49,993 nt of DNA from an uncultured Bacilli bacterium. Lineage in GTDB: Bacteria; Bacillota_I; Bacilli_A; RF39; UBA660. The stretch spans positions 1-49,993 of the forward strand of contig CANRCR010000007.1 of assembly GCA_947629165.1 (NCBI GenBank). The letters are read 5' to 3'. Positions 3,266 to 42,478 of this stretch are shown here, piece by piece. The position numbers and the translations under genes were made by a program. Below the pieces are notes generated by a model. The model was given only the letters and a program-made list of their open reading frames with translations, was not told the origin of the DNA and did not search any database. Position 1 is the stretch's first letter; each line of letters begins with the position of its first letter.

Positions 3266-5491
3266 ATGGAAGCATGGGAGTCTTTTAAAGAAGGAAAATG
3301 GATGAATGAAATTGACGTTCGTGATTTCATTGTACAAAATTATACACTTTATGAAGGAGACGAATCCTTTTTAAGTGGAACGACAGAACGGACTAAAAAA
3401 GTATGGGATCGCTGTAGTGAACTCTTAAAAGAAGAACTAAAAAAGGGAGTACTCGATATTGATACGGTACATATGTCTGGAATCAATGCTTTTGAACCAG
3501 GTTATATTGATCGGGATAATGAAGTGATTGTAGGACTTCAGACGGATGCACCACTCAAAAGAATGGTAAATCCTTACGGTGGAATTCGTATGGTCTATAA
3601 TTCACTCGAAGCTTATCAGTATCAATTAGATCCGACCGTAGATAAATACTTTAACGAATTTCGTAAAACACATAACCAAGGTGTATTTGATGCCTATACG
3701 AGAGAAATGCGAAAAGCACGTCATGTAGGATTATTAACCGGTCTACCAGATGCCTATGGAAGAGGAAGAATTATCGGGGATTATCGCCGTATTGCCCTCT
3801 ATGGAATCGATCGTTTAGTGGAGGAAAAACAAAAAGATTTAATCGGACTTGAAACGACGATGACGGAAGAAGTAATTCGTTTAAGAGAGGAAGTATCGGA
3901 ACAGATTCGTGCCCTCGATGATATTAAAAAAATGGCGGCTAGTTATGGATGTGATATCAGTAGTCCTGCTAAAAATGCGAAAGAAGCTGTACAGTGGACT
4001 TACTTTGGATATTTAGCTGCCATCAAAGAAAATAATGGGGCAGCAATGAGTCTAGGAAGAACTTCTACGTTCTTAGATATTTATATCGAACGGGATTTAC
4101 AAAGAGGTATCTTGACTGAAGAACAGGCTCAAGAATTGATGGATCAGTATGTTATTAAATTACGGATTGCTCGTCATTTAAGAACACCGGAATACGATCA
4201 ATTATTTTCGGGAGATCCAACTTGGGTAACCGAATCGATTGGCGGAGTATCGTTAGAAAATCGTCCATTAGTGACTAAAAACTCGTTCCGGATGCTTCAT
4301 ACATTAACTAATCTTGATCCCGCACCAGAACCAAATATGACGGTTTTGTGGAGTAAAGATTTACCAGAAAACTTTAAAAAATACTGTGCAAAAATGAGTA
4401 TTAAAACCGATGCTATTCAATATGAAAACGACGATTTGATGCGTCCTATTTATGGGGATGATTATGCGATTGCTTGTTGCGTTTCAGCAATGAAAGTAGG
4501 AAAGCAGATGCAGTATTTTGGAGCGCGTTGCAATTTAGCCAAAGCCTTACTTTATGCAATTAATGGAGGAGTCGACGAAGTAAAAAATGACAAAGTATTA
4601 GATAACGTCGAACCTATTTTAGATGAAGTACTAGATTATGAGAAAGTTAAAAATGCGTACGACAAAGTACTAGAACAAGTTGCCGAACTTTATGTTAATA
4701 CGATGAACATCATTCACTATATGCACGATAAATATGCTTACGAACGTGGTCAAATGGCTTTACACGATACCAAAGTAGAGCGACTAATGGCGTTTGGTGT
4801 AGCGGGTCTTTCCGTTGTTGCCGATAGCCTTTCCGCAATTAAATATGCAAAAGTAATGCCGATTCGTGATGAAAATGGAATTGCCATCGACTTCAAAATC
4901 GAAGGAGAATTTCCGAAATACGGAAATGACGATGATCGAGTAGACTTACTAGCCACCGGCGTACTAGAAAAATTCTATAGTGAATTATCAAAACATGAAA
5001 TATATCGTGGTGGAAAACCAACATTATCGGTTTTAACCATTACTTCGAATGTCGTTTATGGAGAAAAGACCGGAGCTACTCCAGACGGAAGAGCAAAAGG
5101 GGTTGCCTTTGCACCGGGAGCTAATCCAATGCATGGAAGAGATGAAAATGGAGCTCTTGCTAGTTTGAATTCCGTTGCCAAAATAAATTATGCTGATTGT
5201 TGTCGAGATGGTGTTTCGAATACCTTCTCGATTGTACCGAATGCCCTTGGCAGTACCATGGAAGACCGTATCGATAATTTAGTATCGATTCTCGATGGTT
5301 ACTTTGTACAAGGTGCCCATCATTTAAATGTAAATGTGCTTCATCGGGAGACTTTAATTGATGCGATGGAAAATCCGGATAAATACCCACTTTTAACCAT
5401 CCGTGTTTCCGGTTATGCCGTTCGTTTTAACCGTCTTACGAGAAAGCAACAGGAAGAAGTAATTGCCCGTACCTTCCACGAGAAATTATAA
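3266..5491 (+). CDS. pflB: Formate acetyltransferase (pyruvate formate-lyase)
   Basis: Cytoplasmic glycyl-radical enzyme converting pyruvate and CoA to acetyl-CoA and formate during anaerobic fermentation. Its 741 residues match the usual family length. The adjacent active-site cysteines are in IACCVSAMK (Cys404-Cys405). The glycyl-radical motif RVSGYAVRF places the radical Gly at about residue 716, 25 residues from the C-terminus as expected. GGGGAGG precedes the ATG. The stop codon overlaps the pflA start by one base, so the enzyme and its activase are translationally coupled. With nifJ at 43.8 kb, the organism has two routes from pyruvate to acetyl-CoA. Confidence 0.98.
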
Positions 5492-6195
5492 TGCAAGGTT
5501 GTATAGATTCCATTGAAAGTATGGGTCTTGTCGATGGACCGGGTATTCGTACCGTCATCTTCTTATCGGGCTGTAAATTAAGATGTAAATATTGTCATAA
5601 TCCAGAGATGTGGGTAAAAGGAAAAGACAATTATTCCGTCGATGAACTCGTAAAAAAAATATTACGTTTTAAACCGTACTATGGAAATAAAGGAGGCGTC
5701 ACTTTTTCGGGAGGAGAACCTTTAATGCAACCGGACTTCCTACTAGAAGTATGTAAACGTCTCAAACAAGAAGGAATTCATATCGCTATTGACACGGCCG
5801 GGGTAGGAACGGGTCATTACGAAGAGTTATTATCGTATGTCGATTTAATAATTTTAGATATTAAACATGTGACGAGAGAAGGTTATATTAATTTAACTGG
5901 ACATGAAATCGATGACAGTTTGAACTTTATTAAAACGGCCAATCGAATGAAAAAACCTTATTGGATTCGTCAAGTAGTAGTGCCCGGAGTAACTGATAGC
6001 GAAACGTACTTAAAATACTTAAAACAGTTCTTAAAACAACTCCCAAATATCCAAAAAATAGATTTCATTCCCTATCATAAATTGGGAAGTGAAAAATACG
6101 ATCGTATGGGATTAGAAAATCCTTATCGAGATAAACCGGCGATGGATCCGGATCGTTGTAAAGAACTATATGAATATTTTATGAAATTAGAGTAG
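5491..6195 (+). CDS. pflA: Pyruvate formate-lyase activating enzyme
   Basis: Radical SAM enzyme of 234 residues that installs the glycyl radical on PflB. The Cx3Cx2C cluster motif is seen as CKLRCKYCH (about residues 29-37), followed by the SAM-binding GGE motif in VTFSGGEPLMQ (about 69-79). The N-terminal IDSIESMGLVDGPGIRTVIF is typical of the family. The ATG overlaps the pflB stop (5489-5491) with no separate promoter, so it depends on the pflB message. A strong terminator follows immediately, and its T tail forms the left edge of the mobile-element insertion site. Confidence 0.97.
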   Translation: MQGCIDSIESMGLVDGPGIRTVIFLSGCKLRCKYCHNPEMWVKGKDNYSVDELVKKILRFKPYYGNKGGVTFSGGEPLMQPDFLLEVCKRLKQEGIHIAIDTAGVGTGHYEELLSYVDLIILDIKHVTREGYINLTGHEIDDSLNFIKTANRMKKPYWIRQVVVPGVTDSETYLKYLKQFLKQLPNIQKIDFIPYHKLGSEKYDRMGLENPYRDKPAMDPDRCKELYEYFMKLE

Positions 6196-6355: not shown

Positions 6356-6381
6356 AAAAGTAGTAAATTCGTAGTAAATTA
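6356..6381 (+). repeat. Left integrase arm-type sites, two tandem copies
   Basis: Two copies of GTAGTAAATT, 11 bp apart (6360-6369 and 6371-6380). The sequence agrees with the DR-2 site bound by the N-terminal domain of Tn916 Int (GAGTAGTAAATTC, from memory). The same 26-bp unit with one mismatch recurs at 14982-15007. It overlaps the 3' end of int. Confidence 0.85.
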
Positions 6382-7578
6382 CTTTTGTTTATTTATCTTT
6401 TCCATCTCGGCTTGTGCAGACAAATATGTAGGGTGTGTATAATAACTTAACGTCATTAAAATATTTTTATGTCCCATGATATATTGCAAAGTGTGAGGAT
6501 TTATACCATAATTGGCCAAATTTGTACAAAAAGTATGTCTTAAAGTATGTGGTGTCATTTTATTTGGCAATTGTTCTTCATGATGTTTATTATACTTTCT
6601 AACAATTCTAGTAAATAATTTATCGTAGGTATCTCGTAATCTTGGATAACCACTACTTTGTAAGAATAGGAAACCAGTATAACCATCAATAGTAATAGTC
6701 TTTCTATTTTTACGATTATTTAATATTCGCTTAAAGATTTCATACGCTCTGTCGCTCATAGGTACTTTTCTTATACCACTTTCGGTTTTAGTCTTTTCAA
6801 TATAATAACCTCTTTTTGTATTCCTTAAAAGTTGATGGTCTATATTGATTAATCTATTTTCAAAGTCTAGGTCTGTCTCTGTTAGTCCACAAAATTCAGA
6901 TACACGAAGTCCTGTTTCCCTTAACAAAACAATCTCGTCATAATATTTATAATATGTTTTATCACTTTTAATAAAAGAATATAGGCTCTCTTCTTGTTCG
7001 AGCGTTAATGATGTTTTTGGCTCTGTATCGTTTTCAATAACTTCATTAAGGTTAAAGTCAAATGGATTTTTCCTTATGCAATCATCTTGTATAGCCATAT
7101 GAAAAGCAGACTTTAAAGAACGCTTATCATTTTTAATAGTCTGATAGGCTACACCTTTTTCTTTCATACGTATTGCCCATTCCTTACCGTCCGACACCTT
7201 AACCTTTTCAATAGGACAAGTACCTAATTTATCTTCTTCTAATGATTTCATAAGTCTATTTCGTCCTATTTCGGTGCTATCTGCAACATTTGGTCGTTGT
7301 TTTATCTTTTTAGCATATAACTGGCAAACAGTCATCCGTTTACCTATTGTATCTATACCATCGTAAAAGTCTTTTTGTAATTCTGCTTCTTTTTCTCGTA
7401 GTGATAAATCATTACGCTTTCCCTTTGGTGTTTTGTCAGTTGGCACTAACTTCCAAGCATAAATAAATTGTGGTTGGCCGAAATTATCAGTATATTTGTA
7501 AACATATCTTCCATCTTTTCTTTGGCTCTCTCCAGTATTTAAAATTCTGTTTTTATTATCTCGTCTTTTCTGTGACAT
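6379..7578 (-). CDS. int: Tn916-family tyrosine integrase
   Basis: The 399-residue recombinase catalyses integration and excision of the element. It resembles Tn916 Int throughout, including the N-terminal arm-binding domain (RRDNKNRIL, GESQRKDGRY). Catalytic residues fall at the Tn916 positions as I recall them: Arg225 (TGLRVSE), Lys264, His344 and Arg347 (HTLRHT), His370 (MGHKN) and nucleophile Tyr379 (LSYYTH). AAAGGAG precedes the ATG. As in Tn916, it lies next to an element end and downstream of xis. An inverted repeat separates it from xis and may set the relative expression of the two. Confidence 0.97.
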   Translation of the reverse strand: MSQKRRDNKNRILNTGESQRKDGRYVYKYTDNFGQPQFIYAWKLVPTDKTPKGKRNDLSLREKEAELQKDFYDGIDTIGKRMTVCQLYAKKIKQRPNVADSTEIGRNRLMKSLEEDKLGTCPIEKVKVSDGKEWAIRMKEKGVAYQTIKNDKRSLKSAFHMAIQDDCIRKNPFDFNLNEVIENDTEPKTSLTLEQEESLYSFIKSDKTYYKYYDEIVLLRETGLRVSEFCGLTETDLDFENRLINIDHQLLRNTKRGYYIEKTKTESGIRKVPMSDRAYEIFKRILNNRKNRKTITIDGYTGFLFLQSSGYPRLRDTYDKLFTRIVRKYNKHHEEQLPNKMTPHTLRHTFCTNLANYGINPHTLQYIMGHKNILMTLSYYTHPTYLSAQAEMEKINKQK

Positions 7579-7603
7579 TTTTTATTCTCCTTTCTATTTA
7601 TAG

Positions 7604-7651
7604 AAAGAGCCTTGATATGTCGATTCCATTATAACATGTTCAAGGCTCTTT
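7604..7651. terminator. Hairpin between xis and int
   Basis: AAAGAGCCTTGA (7604-7615) pairs perfectly with TCAAGGCTCTTT (7640-7651). T5 follows on the plus strand, only T3 on the minus strand. It could attenuate xis-int read-through or block antisense transcription into xis. Confidence 0.5.
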
Positions 7652-7655
7652 TTCA

Positions 7656-7886
7656 CTATATTGTTCCCAATTTATCTATAAGTTGTTCAAATTGTTTTCG
7701 TTTTATTTGAATACGATTACCATTCATGATAACCCAATTAGACATGAGATTTTCTTCTGCAAGTTTGCGAAGTTTATTCTCGCCAATGCGAAAATATTTC
7801 GAAGCTTCTTCAATAGTCAATGTGTATTTTTCCCAAATGGGTACATCAATGTATGATAGAAATGTTTTATTTTCTGCAAAATTCAT
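7656..7886 (-). CDS. xis: Excisionase, Tn916 Xis-like
   Basis: A 76-residue basic DNA-binding protein that directs Int toward excision. The central part, [20 protein letters not shown], followed by LRKLAEEN and [17 protein letters not shown], is nearly the Tn916 Xis sequence and forms a winged-helix (MerR-like) fold. It has about 9 extra N-terminal residues (MNFAENKTF) compared with Tn916 Xis as I remember it. AGGAGG lies 8 nt upstream of the chosen ATG, and that SD is inside a short upstream ORF, suggesting translational coupling. Confidence 0.95.
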
Positions 7887-7889
7887 AAA

Positions 7890-7985
7890 TTATTCCTCCT
7901 CATAATCATAAATAAAATCTGTTTCTAATGTTTCAGGATAAGTCACAAAGTATATTCTAGTATTTTTTAATATTTCAAATATCAT
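7890..7985 (-). CDS. Possible 31-residue ORF upstream of xis
   Basis: The minus strand has ATG at 7985 and TAA at 7892-7890, encoding a 31-residue acidic peptide that begins MIFEILKNTR and ends DYEEE. Its last codons contain the AGGAGG of xis, and its stop is one codon before the xis start in the same frame. That arrangement fits a leader coupled to xis. Its own SD is weak. I do not recognise it, and it could be chance. Confidence 0.35.
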   Translation of the reverse strand: MIFEILKNTRIYFVTYPETLETDFIYDYEEE

Positions 7986-8000
7986 TTTAATTTGCCTTTA

Positions 8001-8042
8001 CTATATGTTTCACATATAGCCCTTTCATTATTTTTTGTTCAA
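8001..8042 (-). promoter_or_regulatory. Putative xis-int promoter with palindromic operator
   Basis: On the minus strand: -35 TTGAAC (8037-8042), 18-bp spacer, -10 TATATG (8013-8018). A perfect inverted repeat, CTATATG/CATATAG (8001-8007 and 8013-8019), covers the -10 and could be an operator. Confidence 0.5.
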
Positions 8043-8074
8043 GAAAAATCTCTCGAGATTATGCACACTTTCCC

Positions 8075-8103
8075 TTGAACTAATACGAATTGTACTATAA
8101 AAT
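8075..8103 (+). promoter_or_regulatory. Putative promoter of the 8163 gene
   Basis: -35 TTGAAC (8075-8080), 17-bp spacer, -10 TAAAAT (8098-8103). An alternative -10, TATAAA at 8096, gives a 15-bp spacer. It is divergent from the xis promoter. Confidence 0.5.
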
Positions 8104-8162
8104 ATAAGATATGTAATTTAAGCAAACCGGAAGTATCCCGGAAATTTAGAAAGGGTGTTTTT

Positions 8163-9113
8163 ATGAAGGTTTTAGATAACGTTTTAGTAATCATTCCAAA
8201 GAAACATCAAGAGGGAAAGATTGAGATTAAGAGAGAGAAAAATATAAGTAATTGGGCAATTTTAGACTTTACAATGCGAGTTGCAAAACAAAAAAGTTCC
8301 ACTAATAATATAAGTTTAAGTAATAGACAATTGACAAGTCTTTTAAATACTAATAACTATATTAAATGCGAAACAAGTGAAATATACGAAGCCATAATTA
8401 ATATTGGTAATCAACTAAACGAAAAAATATATGAATTACAAAAGAATAAAGAAATCAATTTTTATGGAAAAGACCGTATAGATAAAATATTTAAGAAATA
8501 TAGGAACGATATTATAGATAATAACATAGATTATGAATGTAAAAAATTTTGTAAGGCATTTAGTTATATTCCTTTTGAAGATGAAGAAGACAACTATTTA
8601 AAATTTTGTATTTTCACATATTACACCTTTGAATTAGGTTATATTTCTACATATTTTAATAAACCAAAAGGGAAAAATAGTACATACTATGATGATGAAA
8701 AAACTCTAAATAGAAGAAAAGAAATAATAAATTATTTACATAATAATTACTTTAGTCTTAATAACAAAGAGATTGACGAAATTATTCTTGAAAGATATGA
8801 GTTTTACACAGAAAAATATTCAAAGTATGATAAAGTAAGGTTTTGCCTTATTGACGCAGTAAAAGAAGCAGAATTGGAAAAAAAGACATACTCAGATGAA
8901 ATATTTGATATGGTTATAGCAACAGAGGAATTATTAGTACCAATAATTTGGGAAACAAAAAATATATTATGTAATATGTTTAGTGATAAAACATATGCTA
9001 TTTGTGACGAACCAACTTGTCATAATTTGTATAGAAAAAATGGAAGACAACAATATTGCACAGGTTATGAATGCTCACATAAACGTGAGAGAGATAGAAA
9101 AAATAAGTCTTAA
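8163..9113 (+). CDS. Unrecognised element protein with C-terminal zinc ribbon
   Basis: A 316-residue, Lys/Asn/Tyr-rich, very AT-rich gene. I do not recognise residues 1-270. The last 40 residues contain two CxxxxC pairs, CDEPTC and CTGYEC, spaced 13 residues apart and followed by SHKRERDRK. This resembles the zinc-binding tail of CGNR-type proteins and suggests nucleic-acid binding. AAAGGG precedes the ATG. It is transcribed away from xis-int and ends at a hairpin shared with the convergent recombinase gene. Its role could be regulation of the element or a host-interaction function; the sequence does not decide. Confidence 0.8.
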   Translation: MKVLDNVLVIIPKKHQEGKIEIKREKNISNWAILDFTMRVAKQKSSTNNISLSNRQLTSLLNTNNYIKCETSEIYEAIINIGNQLNEKIYELQKNKEINFYGKDRIDKIFKKYRNDIIDNNIDYECKKFCKAFSYIPFEDEEDNYLKFCIFTYYTFELGYISTYFNKPKGKNSTYYDDEKTLNRRKEIINYLHNNYFSLNNKEIDEIILERYEFYTEKYSKYDKVRFCLIDAVKEAELEKKTYSDEIFDMVIATEELLVPIIWETKNILCNMFSDKTYAICDEPTCHNLYRKNGRQQYCTGYECSHKRERDRKNKS

Positions 9114-9136
9114 ATCATAGGACTTTATTTTTTATC
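9101..9136. terminator. Bidirectional terminator between convergent element genes
   Basis: AAATAAGTC (9101-9109) pairs with GACTTTATTT (9121-9130) with one bulge. T-rich tails are present on both strands. Confidence 0.6.
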
Positions 9137-9989
9137 TTAAATAATTTTGAACTATAACGTCTTCTCGATTGTGACCTAATGACATACTAACCTCGTGTAA
9201 TGCCTCTCTATCAAATGAACGTCCAGCCATATCGCCTCTAGCATAGTAAATTTCACTTCTTGAAAGCATACTTGTATCTCTTGCAATTGAATTATAATAT
9301 TGATTAGCATAATCACTTCTATAAGCGTGAATAGGTGCTTTGCTATGAACTCGTCCCCATACCTTTTCGCTGTCTTCTGTGTTTCTTATCTTGTCTATAA
9401 CATTTTGATTGTTATTTAGTATTAGAGCGTCGCGTTCTTTACCACCTTTGCCATTCGTAACGTGGACGTAGTATTGTCCGTCTTTTTCGCGTAAACAATC
9501 ACCCTTAACATTTTCTAATTCGCTACGTCTAAGTCCAGTTGCTTGACAAAACTCTTTTAAGTCGGCGTTTCTTGTTTCACTAAAGTGGCGTGACGACTCA
9601 GTGTCAAGTCTTGAACGCGTGATGTCGGCTCTATGTCTTACGTCCGTTTCGACTTCTTTAAAATAACTATGATTGTATAATTTTGATAATGATGATAAGT
9701 ATGACTTTTGTGTATAAGCACTTACGCCTTGCGCTCTTTTGTCTTGAATATAATCATTGACGTGCTGACGGCAATCTTCTAGGGTTTTTGAATTGTAATT
9801 AGATTTGCAATAATCGACAAAACGATTAGCAGTCTCTAAATAATTGTGATAAGTTCTATATGAAAAAATTTTATCACTCACATCATTGTTGTTCTTTGCT
9901 TCGTGACGACTTTCAGAAATTGATAGTTTCGAGTGTAAAACTTGTTGTACTTGATAATTTAATGATTTGCCACTATTTGCGTGTCCCAT
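9132..9989 (-). CDS. Second tyrosine recombinase
   Basis: A 285-residue site-specific recombinase unrelated to the Tn916-type int beyond the fold. The N-terminal SAM-like core-binding region (about 40-120) is followed by a catalytic domain with all expected residues: Arg in ATGLRRSELE (about 153), Lys in TNGKGGKERD (about 181), HxYR as IHAYRSDYA, SLGHNRED and the terminal Tyr in NYLR. The very short tail after the Tyr is typical of this group. I recall similar proteins beginning MGxANxGKxLNYQV on clostridial and Lachnospiraceae elements. GGGGG precedes the ATG. It could resolve replication multimers or act at the repeats upstream of its start. Confidence 0.9.
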   Translation of the reverse strand: MGHANSGKSLNYQVQQVLHSKLSISESRHEAKNNNDVSDKIFSYRTYHNYLETANRFVDYCKSNYNSKTLEDCRQHVNDYIQDKRAQGVSAYTQKSYLSSLSKLYNHSYFKEVETDVRHRADITRSRLDTESSRHFSETRNADLKEFCQATGLRRSELENVKGDCLREKDGQYYVHVTNGKGGKERDALILNNNQNVIDKIRNTEDSEKVWGRVHSKAPIHAYRSDYANQYYNSIARDTSMLSRSEIYYARGDMAGRSFDREALHEVSMSLGHNREDVIVQNYLR

Positions 9990-10031
9990 AATAATACCCC
10001 CTAAATTATTTTGTTGTTAAGGTTTTACCAA

Positions 10032-10153
10032 CACTCTTTATTATCGTGTCTTATGCACGACACGTTCGTTTTATCGCGAAGTTTGTATAAATAGACTAAC
10101 TATTCTAAATCTCTCAATAGCACTCTTTTTTATAGTTACTTATGCACGTAACT
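10032..10153. repeat. Two stem-loop units with identical loop and covarying stems
   Basis: Unit 1 (10032-10064): CACTCTTTATTAT, then stem CGTGTC, loop TTATGCAC, stem GACACG. Unit 2 (10121-10153): CACTCTTTTTTAT, stem AGTTAC, loop TTATGCAC, stem GTAACT. Three of six stem pairs differ but stay complementary. They lie 75-165 bp upstream of the recombinase start. Confidence 0.8.
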
Positions 10154-10340
10154 GAGAAAATAGTTGTCGTATTTATAACACGCTTTTAAAGGCCACTTTT
10201 AGCCGTTTTTAGCGTTGTTTTGATATGAATGATAATTTACTTTGATGTGGTGTGATTATTCTCTTTTCTCACACTTATGATTTGTTTCTTGATGATTATG
10301 ACTTCTTCGTCTTATCGTCTAAGAACATCATTCTTATCAA

Positions 10341-10377
10341 ACTCGTCAATTAGTCAACAAGTTGTTTTTTGACGAGT
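10341..10377. repeat. Inverted repeat, 9-bp arms
   Basis: ACTCGTCAA (10341-10349) and TTGACGAGT (10369-10377). A small inner CAAC/GTTG hairpin is followed by T6. Confidence 0.75.
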
Positions 10378-10383
10378 AGGGTG

Positions 10384-10413
10384 TTTTGCTAGTTTCTTTC
10401 TAAACTAGCAAAA
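10384..10413. repeat. Inverted repeat, 12-bp arms
   Basis: TTTTGCTAGTTT (10384-10395), loop CTTTCT, AAACTAGCAAAA (10402-10413); perfect. Confidence 0.85.
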
Positions 10414-10528
10414 ATGTAATAGATAAAAAACGCCTTTTTTGTATTCTTTAAATCATCCTTTCTTTTTTAATTCCTCCTTTCCTAATTTATTTTTTATTCA
10501 CTGGCTCCTTTTTTATCTATTACATTTT
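10411..10528. repeat. Inverted repeat, 20-bp arms with 78-bp loop
   Basis: Positions 10411-10430 are perfectly complementary to 10509-10528. The intervening 78 bp are pyrimidine-rich and contain an A6-CGCC-T6 mini-hairpin at 10425-10440. The left arm overlaps the previous repeat by 3 bp, so the two structures compete. Confidence 0.85.
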
Positions 10529-10556
10529 ATTTATGAGGTATGGGGGTTATAATTTT

Positions 10557-10613
10557 TACGGCGTATGTCGCCGTTTAGTCGCACATTCTATTCGACTAAA
10601 CGGCTACGCCGTA
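10557..10613. repeat. Long imperfect hairpin, about 20 bp paired
   Basis: TACGGCGTA (10557-10565) pairs with TACGCCGTA (10605-10613), and CCGTTTAGTCG (10571-10581) with CGACTAAACGG (10593-10603). The apical loop is 11 nt and an asymmetric internal loop separates the helices. It is notably GC-rich for this genome. Confidence 0.85.
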
Positions 10614-10737
10614 CTGACGCCATCAACTTCGCTCACTTGTTCCGTCTTCCTCGTCTCACTCATTCTCTTACTCATCGCTTCACTTCCTCACAGCCTCTCT
10701 CGTTTCACTTCCTCATACTTCCTCACACTCACACTTT

Positions 10738-10757
10738 GACACGTGCATACACGTGTC
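10738..10757. repeat. Perfect 8-bp hairpin with 4-nt loop
   Basis: GACACGTG (10738-10745), loop CATA, CACGTGTC (10750-10757). Its reverse complement contains TATGCACG, echoing the loop motif of the 10032-10153 units. Confidence 0.8.
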
Positions 10758-10875
10758 TTGTGTTCCTGTTCGTTGTATTCGTCGTTCAGCTCGTTCGTTG
10801 TTCGTCGTTACACTCTTCGTTCGCTTATTCATTCGACATCGTCATACGTTACGCGTTCGTTTGTTTCGGTTGTCT

Positions 10876-10920
10876 TGCATTTTAGATTCTTTTATAAAAG
10901 TTTAAAAATTCTAAAATGCA
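10876..10920. repeat. Inverted repeat, 11-bp arms, downstream of rep
   Basis: TGCATTTTAGA (10876-10886) and TCTAAAATGCA (10910-10920), with an inner palindrome CTTTTATAAAAG. It lies just past the rep stop. On the minus strand the T run comes before the stem, not after, so it is not a standard terminator. Confidence 0.75.
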
Positions 10921-10937
10921 TAAAAAAAGACTGATAA

Positions 10938-12377
10938 CTAATCATTATCATCTTTTTCATAAATTAATTTTATTGTTTCAGGCCAAGAAGTAACCTCATA
11001 AAATGGGTAACCCTTGTACCTTTTTCCAAAATCTTTAAACTTTTTCATTATCTCTTCTTCACTCAATTTCATTAATTGATTGTTCTTTATTACATTATAT
11101 TTTTCGAGTGGTAGAGTAAGCAGTTTTGCTGTTATTTTGCGTTCCAATTCTTCACGTCCAGCACAGGCAATTACTATTTGTTGCATATCACCCTCTATAG
11201 AGGAATACTTCTCGTACGTAAAAAAATCGTCATTATTTTCCATAAAACCTTTGTTAATCAACAAATCGAAATCGTCTTTGCGTAAAGCCAATATTATAGG
11301 AAAACGGCGATAACTTTGTTTTTTATCCTCAGATTTTATACTTTGCCCATCTCTCGTGATGTATTCCCCAGCCAAGCCATTTAGAAAGGTGGTGTAGTCT
11401 TCTACCGAGTTAACAATGTTTATTGCGTTACATAGTTTAACACTTCCATACTTTATATTCTGTCTCCTCGCGACTGGGCTAGGGTGGGTATCAAAAGCGT
11501 CAAAAACGTTACCACGATTTCCTAAAGTTCTTATTAAGTCAATTGCTCGAACATCGTTCCAAATAATTACAGGTTGTCCATCATATCCATCGAAAGTTAT
11601 CTTTTCATTACCACCAACTTCAAAATAGATGTCTTCCTCATTTTCTATATTTGGAAATAATTGTCTTGCTAATGCTCTACTCATTAAACCCTTTCCAGTA
11701 CCACCTTCACCACATATATAAAAATTGATACGAGTTTTTGGTGGCTTTTGATTAGTGAGTAAATATTCTTTCCTGTTTTTTTCTAACTTGTCCCAAAGTT
11801 TTGTATATAATGCTATATTTTCTTCTCTACATTCTCGTAATGTTTTTCCCTCATTTAGAACTTGGTAAAGCATTAAATCTTTATCATTAAGAATAACACC
11901 AAGACGTTCAAATTTGTTAATTTCTTCTCTAAAGTTAAAATTACTTTTTATGTTATTGTCTAGGTACTTATGCTTGCCTTTCTCTTGCTCTTTGTTACTT
12001 TCGTGAGTTAAGTATTGTACGTTTTGAATAAAAGCAGTCTCTACATTTTTTCCTTTTGGAATGTCAACTTGATTTATTGGTACTTTAAACCATTTGGCTA
12101 CAACCTCTAATTTTTCACTATTTGGTATAAAACCAACAATATGGTAGTGTTTAGGTTTTAAATCTCCGACTTTCCAATTAGGTTCATTTCCGTTTTTTTC
12201 CTTATAATTTTGATAGTCATTTTCCAAGTATGCATCTTTATCGTGTAAAATATATGCCCATTTTTTAATACTTCTATGGTTAAGGGCGTCAATGATTTGT
12301 TCTTCATCAATTAGTTTTTCGTTTGTCTTAGAATTAACTAATTGTTGAACTATATGAAAAACTTTAATCTTCATCAT
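10938..12377 (-). CDS. Replication initiator with HUH nuclease and SF3-like helicase domains
   Basis: 479 residues. The N-terminal nuclease (about 1-140) has a YILHDKD segment (42-48), the HUH metal site in PKHYHIVG (His77, His79) and a likely nucleophile Tyr122 in VQYLTHES. The C-terminal half is a P-loop ATPase: Walker A GEGGTGKG (about 223-230), a Walker B-like segment VIIWNDVR (270-277) and an Asn-containing motif C candidate, AINIVNS (about 318-324), as in superfamily 3 helicases. Rolling-circle Reps with this fusion are known from the bacterial pCRESS-type plasmids related to CRESS DNA viruses, and Rep-like proteins also serve as relaxases in some integrative mobilizable elements. AGAGGTGA precedes the first of two ATGs. 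Confidence 0.9.
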   Translation of the reverse strand: MMKIKVFHIVQQLVNSKTNEKLIDEEQIIDALNHRSIKKWAYILHDKDAYLENDYQNYKEKNGNEPNWKVGDLKPKHYHIVGFIPNSEKLEVVAKWFKVPINQVDIPKGKNVETAFIQNVQYLTHESNKEQEKGKHKYLDNNIKSNFNFREEINKFERLGVILNDKDLMLYQVLNEGKTLRECREENIALYTKLWDKLEKNRKEYLLTNQKPPKTRINFYICGEGGTGKGLMSRALARQLFPNIENEEDIYFEVGGNEKITFDGYDGQPVIIWNDVRAIDLIRTLGNRGNVFDAFDTHPSPVARRQNIKYGSVKLCNAINIVNSVEDYTTFLNGLAGEYITRDGQSIKSEDKKQSYRRFPIILALRKDDFDLLINKGFMENNDDFFTYEKYSSIEGDMQQIVIACAGREELERKITAKLLTLPLEKYNVIKNNQLMKLSEEEIMKKFKDFGKRYKGYPFYEVTSWPETIKLIYEKDDND

Positions 12378-41267: not shown

Positions 41268-41296
41268 TTTACAAATTTTTTCGAATATGATATAAT
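41268..41296 (+). promoter_or_regulatory. Strong promoter of the OLE RNA
   Basis: -35 TTTACA (41268-41273), 17 bp, -10 TATAAT (41291-41296) with extended TG (41288-41289). Predicts a transcript start near 41303. Confidence 0.88.
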
Positions 41297-41302
41297 GTAG
41301 AG

Positions 41303-41892
41303 CGTAAAAACGGAATTGGTGCACTATTCTAGTGAACAATCGTTATTATGAAGGCGGGGTTAAAATACCGTTAAAGAGCACATCAGTGAAGCTTTTGGTG
41401 GTCGCTTGGAACGCCCAGTTCGGGGCGATTGCTGGAAGAAAGAGATACTGGACGACCGTAATGGCATACGGCAACCGTTCCACTTCTCGCGGAGACCTAA
41501 TTAGGTGAAAAACGATACGATGTTTTTTACGAATTAGATTTGGAACCTATTCTTGGGGAAACCTATGAATAGCGTAGCTTGACTTGAGTGAAGTTTGGGG
41601 ATGGAGACAGCTACTTTCCTTTCGTACAAAAGAAAAGTAGTATTGCTACCGGAAACATTCTTTGCAAAAAAGTACTAGTAATAACAAGTTCCTGAGGAAA
41701 ACTCCTAGAGTGTTCCTAATTTCTTTCGGATTGCAGTGCATGCTAAGTGGTAATCAAGTCGTAGAACTGGTGACAGTCTACCTATTGCTTGAAAGGGGAA
41801 CCGCTTTCTGGTAACGGAAAGTAGCGATAGGGGAAATCCAACTTGACCTAAGATGCAAAGTTTACGAAAGGAATGACCATTTCTTTTTTTTT
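41303..41892 (+). ncRNA. OLE RNA (ornate, large, extremophilic)
   Basis: A 590-base region with a strong promoter, no coding frame, many local hairpins and its own terminator (AAAGGAATG at 41867-41875 pairing with CATTTCTTT, then a long T run). The next gene encodes a protein that looks like OapA, the membrane partner of OLE RNA, and OLE RNAs of about 600 nt typically lie directly upstream of oapA. The assignment rests on size, structure and this genomic pairing; I did not align it to the covariance model. In Bacillus halodurans the OLE complex is linked to cold, ethanol and Mg2+ stress responses. Confidence 0.85.
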
Positions 41893-41917
41893 AGTTTAAT
41901 TTAAAAGAGGTTTTTAA

Positions 41918-42478
41918 ATGAAAAAGATAAATAAAAAACGTACCAAAAATAAAAAGGTAACCGATTATAAATGGATTGTTATAGTAACGCTTGCCGCTTT
42001 TTTAATCTCGCTTGGTTTTTCTTTATTATCAGAGACCATCATTCCACAAGTATCGTTAATAGTGGCAATCATTATTTTACTTTTCTTTATTGCATTAGGT
42101 ATCCTTTTCGATATGATTGGGGTTGCGGTGACCGTCAGTGAAGAAGCATCTTTTCATTCGATGGCTGCTAAAAAAGTAAGAGGAGCACCCCTTGCCGTTC
42201 TCTTAATTCGTAATGCCAATAAAGTATCCAGCTTTTGTAACGATGTTATTGGCGATATTTGTGGCATCATGTCCGGTGCTACCGGTGTGACCATTGCGGT
42301 AACGATTGCTAGTCAATTTCATTGGGACTTATTATGTGTCAGTCTCTTTCTAACTGCTTTAATCGCCGCTTTAACCATTGGAGGAAAAGCGTTAGGAAAA
42401 GGAGTAGCCATGAATAAAAGTAACGAAATACTTTTCCGTTTTGCTAAAGTATTAACTATTTTTTATTCGGGAAATTAA
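41918..42478 (+). CDS. oapA: OLE-associated membrane protein OapA
   Basis: 186 residues, basic N-terminus (KKINKKRTKNKK), then four hydrophobic segments (about 19-40, 45-70, 122-142, 145-162). The conserved cytoplasmic-side segment SFHSMAAKKVRGAPLAVLLI is followed by RNANKVSSFCNDVIGDICGI, as I remember for OapA and the related DUF21/CNNM-type domains. OapA homodimers bind OLE RNA and hold it at the membrane. AAAGAGG precedes the ATG. The gene starts 26 bp after the OLE terminator, so expression probably comes from read-through of the OLE promoter. Confidence 0.88.
   Translation: MKKINKKRTKNKKVTDYKWIVIVTLAAFLISLGFSLLSETIIPQVSLIVAIIILLFFIALGILFDMIGVAVTVSEEASFHSMAAKKVRGAPLAVLLIRNANKVSSFCNDVIGDICGIMSGATGVTIAVTIASQFHWDLLCVSLFLTALIAALTIGGKALGKGVAMNKSNEILFRFAKVLTIFYSGN

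Follow-up and report, generated by a model that had tools for sequence, protein, structure and literature searches.

A full-length OLE RNA with adjacent oapA in an uncultured Bacilli bacterium, and shortened OLE forms in its family

OLE RNAs are among the largest structured RNAs of bacteria, and their biochemical job is unsolved. The locus considered here raises the question of what such an RNA works with in a probable gut bacterium that has a small genome. The window, a stretch of 49,993 nucleotides from an uncultured Bacilli bacterium, holds an OLE RNA followed directly by a gene for a 186-residue protein. A sequence-only reading had named the pair as OLE and OapA and regarded it as broadening the setting in which OLE is known. 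The pair is real and well formed. Its setting is an already known one and the claim of a wider setting is out of date, because OLE was reported in 2024 from RF39 and TANB77, uncultured gut clades of Bacillota with reduced genomes that mostly lack OapB and OapC (Fernando & Breaker 2024, PMC11332333). The surrounding family is more useful than the pair itself, and much of what follows concerns it.

The ole-oapA locus

The features of the locus are as follows.

41268..41296, + strand: ole promoter, sigma-70 type (TTTACA at 41268-41273, 17-nt spacer, TATAAT at 41291-41296)
41300..41896, + strand: OLE RNA (RF01071), full-length class, P7 and P8 present
41582..41673, + strand: P9 hairpin of the OLE RNA (placed by transferring consensus columns 312-408 to the window sequence)
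41624-41627, + strand: self-complementary GUAC in the P9 apical loop (CGTACA, centre GTAC), presumed homodimer kissing loop
41918..42478, + strand: oapA, encoding a predicted four-helix membrane protein of 186 aa (DxxxD as DVIGD, residues 109-113)

When the whole window was searched with cmscan, OLE was the sole Rfam match, at 398.8 bits (E 8.6e-114; the gathering score of RF01071 is 50 bits) and over model positions 1-616, which is the full length. A covariance-model search found this one copy in the genome to which the window belongs and none in 14 control genomes searched in the same way. The promoter was also correctly recognized from the sequence: it matches 11 of 12 consensus positions, carries a TG ahead of the second hexamer and was the top-scoring promoter of the region in a scan. 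From the end of ole to the start of oapA there are 22 nt on the same strand. The terminator that had been placed between the two could not be recovered by scanning, and all that is seen ahead of oapA is a run of U residues at about 41881-41891, behind the stem that closes the OLE RNA. Since a terminator was not found there, read-through transcription from ole into oapA is likely.

Upstream of ole lie glycosyltransferase-type ORFs, and downstream of oapA a NAGPA-domain protein, a pyruvate:ferredoxin oxidoreductase (PFOR; TIGR02176, 1486.6 bits) and RecG. The polysaccharide and PFOR genes that had been read as the setting of the pair are thus indeed its neighbours, but the neighbours of ole differ among family members and these genes have no fixed link to it. 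The presence of PFOR bears out the earlier suggestion of a probable gut anaerobe as host. Some further ORFs of the window were named by eye. One that resembles pyruvate formate-lyase and a radical SAM ORF of activating-enzyme type, both at 3266-6195, fit an anaerobe, and two integrase-like ORFs with a 479-aa replication-initiator-like ORF at 6379-12377 probably mark an integrated mobile element. The window also encodes a collagen-like protein with GPTGPT repeats at 1000-1881.

The structure of the RNA was examined in an alignment of 16 full-length OLE sequences, the window copy and 15 from relatives. At 85 of the 147 pairs of the consensus fold there is at least one compensatory double change, and the conserved secondary structure expected of an OLE RNA is therefore maintained by covariation. 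Stems are named by laying the published order (P4 with an A-rich loop, then P5 and P6, whose loops are complementary, and after them P7, P8 and P9) onto the Rfam consensus, a mapping that is our own. The window copy keeps both P7 and P8 and is in this respect different from variant 2, which lacks the two stems, is common among RF39 OLE RNAs (PMC11332333) and occurs in the family of the window. It resembles the full-length class in its full-model match, stems, adjacent oapA and palindromic P9 loop, and differs in having a probable gut host with a draft genome of about 1.1 Mb, and in the lack of candidates for OapB and OapC.

The P9 loop deserves separate attention. A kissing loop at P9 has been seen by cryo-EM, and switching among GGCC, GAUC and AGCU was noted in the same work (Kretsch et al. 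2025, PMC12286853), which is why we do not present palindrome switching as novel; the GUAC of the window adds to the kinds named there. Of 129 OLE sequences, 118 have a self-complementary tetramer at the centre of the apical loop, a count that takes in some non-family loci (Clostridia) and related sequences that are not independent: GGCC in 74, AGCU in 20, GUAC in 12, UUAA in 4, GCGC in 3, and GAUC, CAUG, CGCG, UCGA and UGCA once each. About 20 would be expected at 1/16 per tetramer, and shuffling gave a mean of 41 and a maximum of 55. When P9 is left out of tree building, the resulting tree shows at least 20 switches between palindrome types. The palindrome is often missing from variants whose P9 is short. 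Taken as sequence patterns, these palindromes, including the one in the window, support OLE homodimers.

OapA and the other partners

The 186-residue protein is OapA, as had been proposed. It carries the DxxxD motif that is the signature of OapA (PMC11332333) and is 38-74% identical to 20 ole-linked relatives in the family; C107, D109, V110, G112 and D113, and with them both aspartates of the motif, are invariant in all 21 aligned proteins. The AlphaFold2 model (mean pLDDT 86.9) has four long helices at residues 17-44, 47-73, 100-134 and 138-166. Its five best PDB matches are all membrane domains of CNNM/CorB/CorC proteins (7m1t, 7m1u, 7cfg and 7cff), with probabilities of 0.97-1.00 and E values of 0.005-0.8, the top match having probability 1.00 and E 0.005. 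The Pfam CNNM match is weak (E 0.004, below cut-off), and a CNNM-like fold has already been published for OapA. The DxxxD motif, the CNNM-like fold and adjacency to ole are shared with OapA of Halalkalibacterium halodurans, a likeness of features and not one drawn residue by residue. The Mg2+ exporters of the MpfA/CorC type have the membrane-domain fold in common with OapA, which is without their CBS and CorC_HlyC domains.

The remaining partners were sought in the genome of the window, a draft of about 1.1 Mb that is 94% complete and in which an absence is not proof. A search for OapB and OapC had been advised in the sequence-only reading. There is no candidate for OapB, as KOW was matched by L24 and NusG alone, and none for OapC (YbxF, L7Ae family) with the L7Ae profile at E up to 1, a search that did find the family in 10 of 14 control genomes. 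This is what PMC11332333 reports for RF39, whose OLE-bearing members are likewise uncultured gut Bacillota with reduced genomes that largely lack both proteins. The window probably belongs to RF39, judged by these shared features and by the P7/P8-less variant in its family. An MpfA-type CorC_HlyC domain was also not found in the draft. The ribosomal protein bS21 is present (E 1.3e-13) and is common to this genome and the OLE ribonucleoprotein of H. halodurans, from which the window genome differs in lacking candidates for OapB and OapC. Near bS21 (L135, about 389-760) are two short ORFs with double-glycine leader-like starts (LSSQELVQMEGG and LTTDELLQIEGG), perhaps bacteriocin precursors.

OLE, OapA and MpfA across the family

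The family was surveyed through 193 genomes of at least 80% completeness. Of these, 131 carry OLE and 132 carry OapA, with both in 129, only one in 5 and neither in 59 (Fisher p 2.7e-43, kinship among genomes ignored). A larger draw from the family gave OLE in 257 of 387 genomes, while none was detected in 23 genomes of the class that belong to other families. Contig ends account for three of the five discordant genomes: an OLE fragment lies at a contig end in G107, and the locus breaks off at one in G109 and G166. In G061 (L124) a full-length OLE is present and OapA was detected neither adjacent to it nor elsewhere in the genome; in G170 (L123) OapA is present and OLE was not detected. G170 and G007 (L130) belong to one genus, in which oapA stands away from ole, amid unrelated genes. 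The two genes are on different contigs in G007 and about 1-3 kb apart in G009, G176 and G141, so co-transcription is not universal.

Incompleteness of about 8% would explain only some 15 of the 59 double absences, and most of them therefore look like real losses, although assembly breaks at ole do occur. One such break is G002, of the same genus as the window, which was dismissed as a case of loss since its contig starts just before oapA. Two OLE matches each in G003 and G029 are probably due to contamination or contig ends.

Across Bacillota, OLE and MpfA have been reported to be anticorrelated, and MpfA was considered as a replacement for OLE in the relatives without it. This was rejected. 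A CorC_HlyC (MpfA-type) protein is found in none of the 193 genomes, including all 59 without OLE and OapA, although the search detected one in 11 of 14 control genomes. Of the 11 family genomes that have strong CNNM proteins, 9 carry OLE and 2 do not (p 0.51). TerC/MeeY gave no match above cut-off in the family. With CorC_HlyC absent throughout, MpfA does not balance the loss of OLE and OapA in this family, a result that qualifies the published anticorrelation and does not overturn it.

How, then, would the ole-oapA unit work? We favor, at a probability of roughly 85%, a membrane ribonucleoprotein in reduced form. One promoter would drive an OLE RNA of about 600 nt and, probably by read-through, OapA; the RNA would bind OapA and sit at the cell membrane, most likely as a homodimer held partly by the self-complementary P9 loop. 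Through its CNNM-like OapA, the complex may help the cell with stress and Mg2+, by analogy with H. halodurans, and it would do so here without OapB and OapC. The very arrangement of the locus, with ole 22 nt ahead of the oapA start codon and no terminator found between them, could also mean that the RNA serves chiefly to control oapA expression, as a long cis-acting leader, and is not a free-standing part of a ribonucleoprotein. Yet the RNA is conserved where oapA lies kilobases off or on another contig (G200 in addition to the four separated cases above), the covariation in the P9 loop points to pairing between two molecules, and OLE of H. halodurans is an abundant RNA bound at the membrane by OapA (PMC9723947, PMC12265935). 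A leader of this kind is thus very improbable.

It is also conceivable, in a shrinking genome from which OapB and OapC are gone, that OLE is a decaying relic, as the 59 genomes that lack OLE as well as OapA and the occurrence of shortened forms might suggest. Against this, the window copy is full length and high-scoring for the family, it keeps its promoter, the invariant columns and the palindromic P9, and the stems have been maintained through compensatory change; decay is, if anything, slightly less credible than the leader. The alternative with the best, though still low, chance is that OapA alone serves as a CNNM-type Mg2+ exporter in place of MpfA, with the RNA merely tuning it. The fold of OapA and the want of any CorC_HlyC protein in the family agree with this idea, but OapA almost never occurs without OLE (G170 is the one unexplained case among 132), and the genomes without OLE and OapA are without MpfA too, so not every member of the family needs one or the other.

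Shortened OLE forms

Apart from full-length copies like that of the window, the family contains OLE RNAs of about 460-515 nt that have lost P7 and P8; L020 and L022 are without the P7/P8 part of the model. A still smaller form, here called mini-OLE, has 378-381 nt, scores 134-139 bits and is found in G062 and G189, of one genus, and in G127, of another. Each is followed by oapA.

L126, 1669-2046: mini-OLE RNA, then oapA
L127, 1316-1693, - strand: mini-OLE RNA, then oapA
L128, 1663-2043: mini-OLE RNA, then oapA

In these RNAs model positions 74-277 are reduced to a dozen-odd nucleotides able to form a small hairpin (TGTTAA..TTAACA). The roughly 200 nt that are lost correspond, in our stem mapping, to P5-P8, and the missing part comprises, by published positions, the kink-turn region for OapC, the P6 site of bS21 and the L5/L6 bridge of the dimer. 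By inspection, P2, P3 and P4 are kept, as are a shortened P9 with a palindromic UGAUCA and the 3' domain, and the promoter and directly adjoining oapA are likewise retained. A form of this kind was not found in the main text of PMC11332333 or in the other OLE papers examined.

It appears reasonably probable, as a joint proposition, that mini-OLE marks a minimal core working with OapA and that MpfA is not a necessary replacement in this family, the latter because many relatives are without OLE, OapA, MpfA and TerC alike. With full-length, P7/P8-less and mini forms next to close relatives that have no OLE, the family amounts to a natural deletion series, all in small genomes and with OapA as the one clear partner kept. 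Such a series could tell which parts of the RNA OapA needs, and it provides a smaller target for structural studies. The family also lends itself to asking if MpfA is a true substitute for OLE. CNNM-type proteins of about 340-410 aa (L137, L138 and L139) occur here in genomes without CorC_HlyC, both OLE-bearing and OLE-less.
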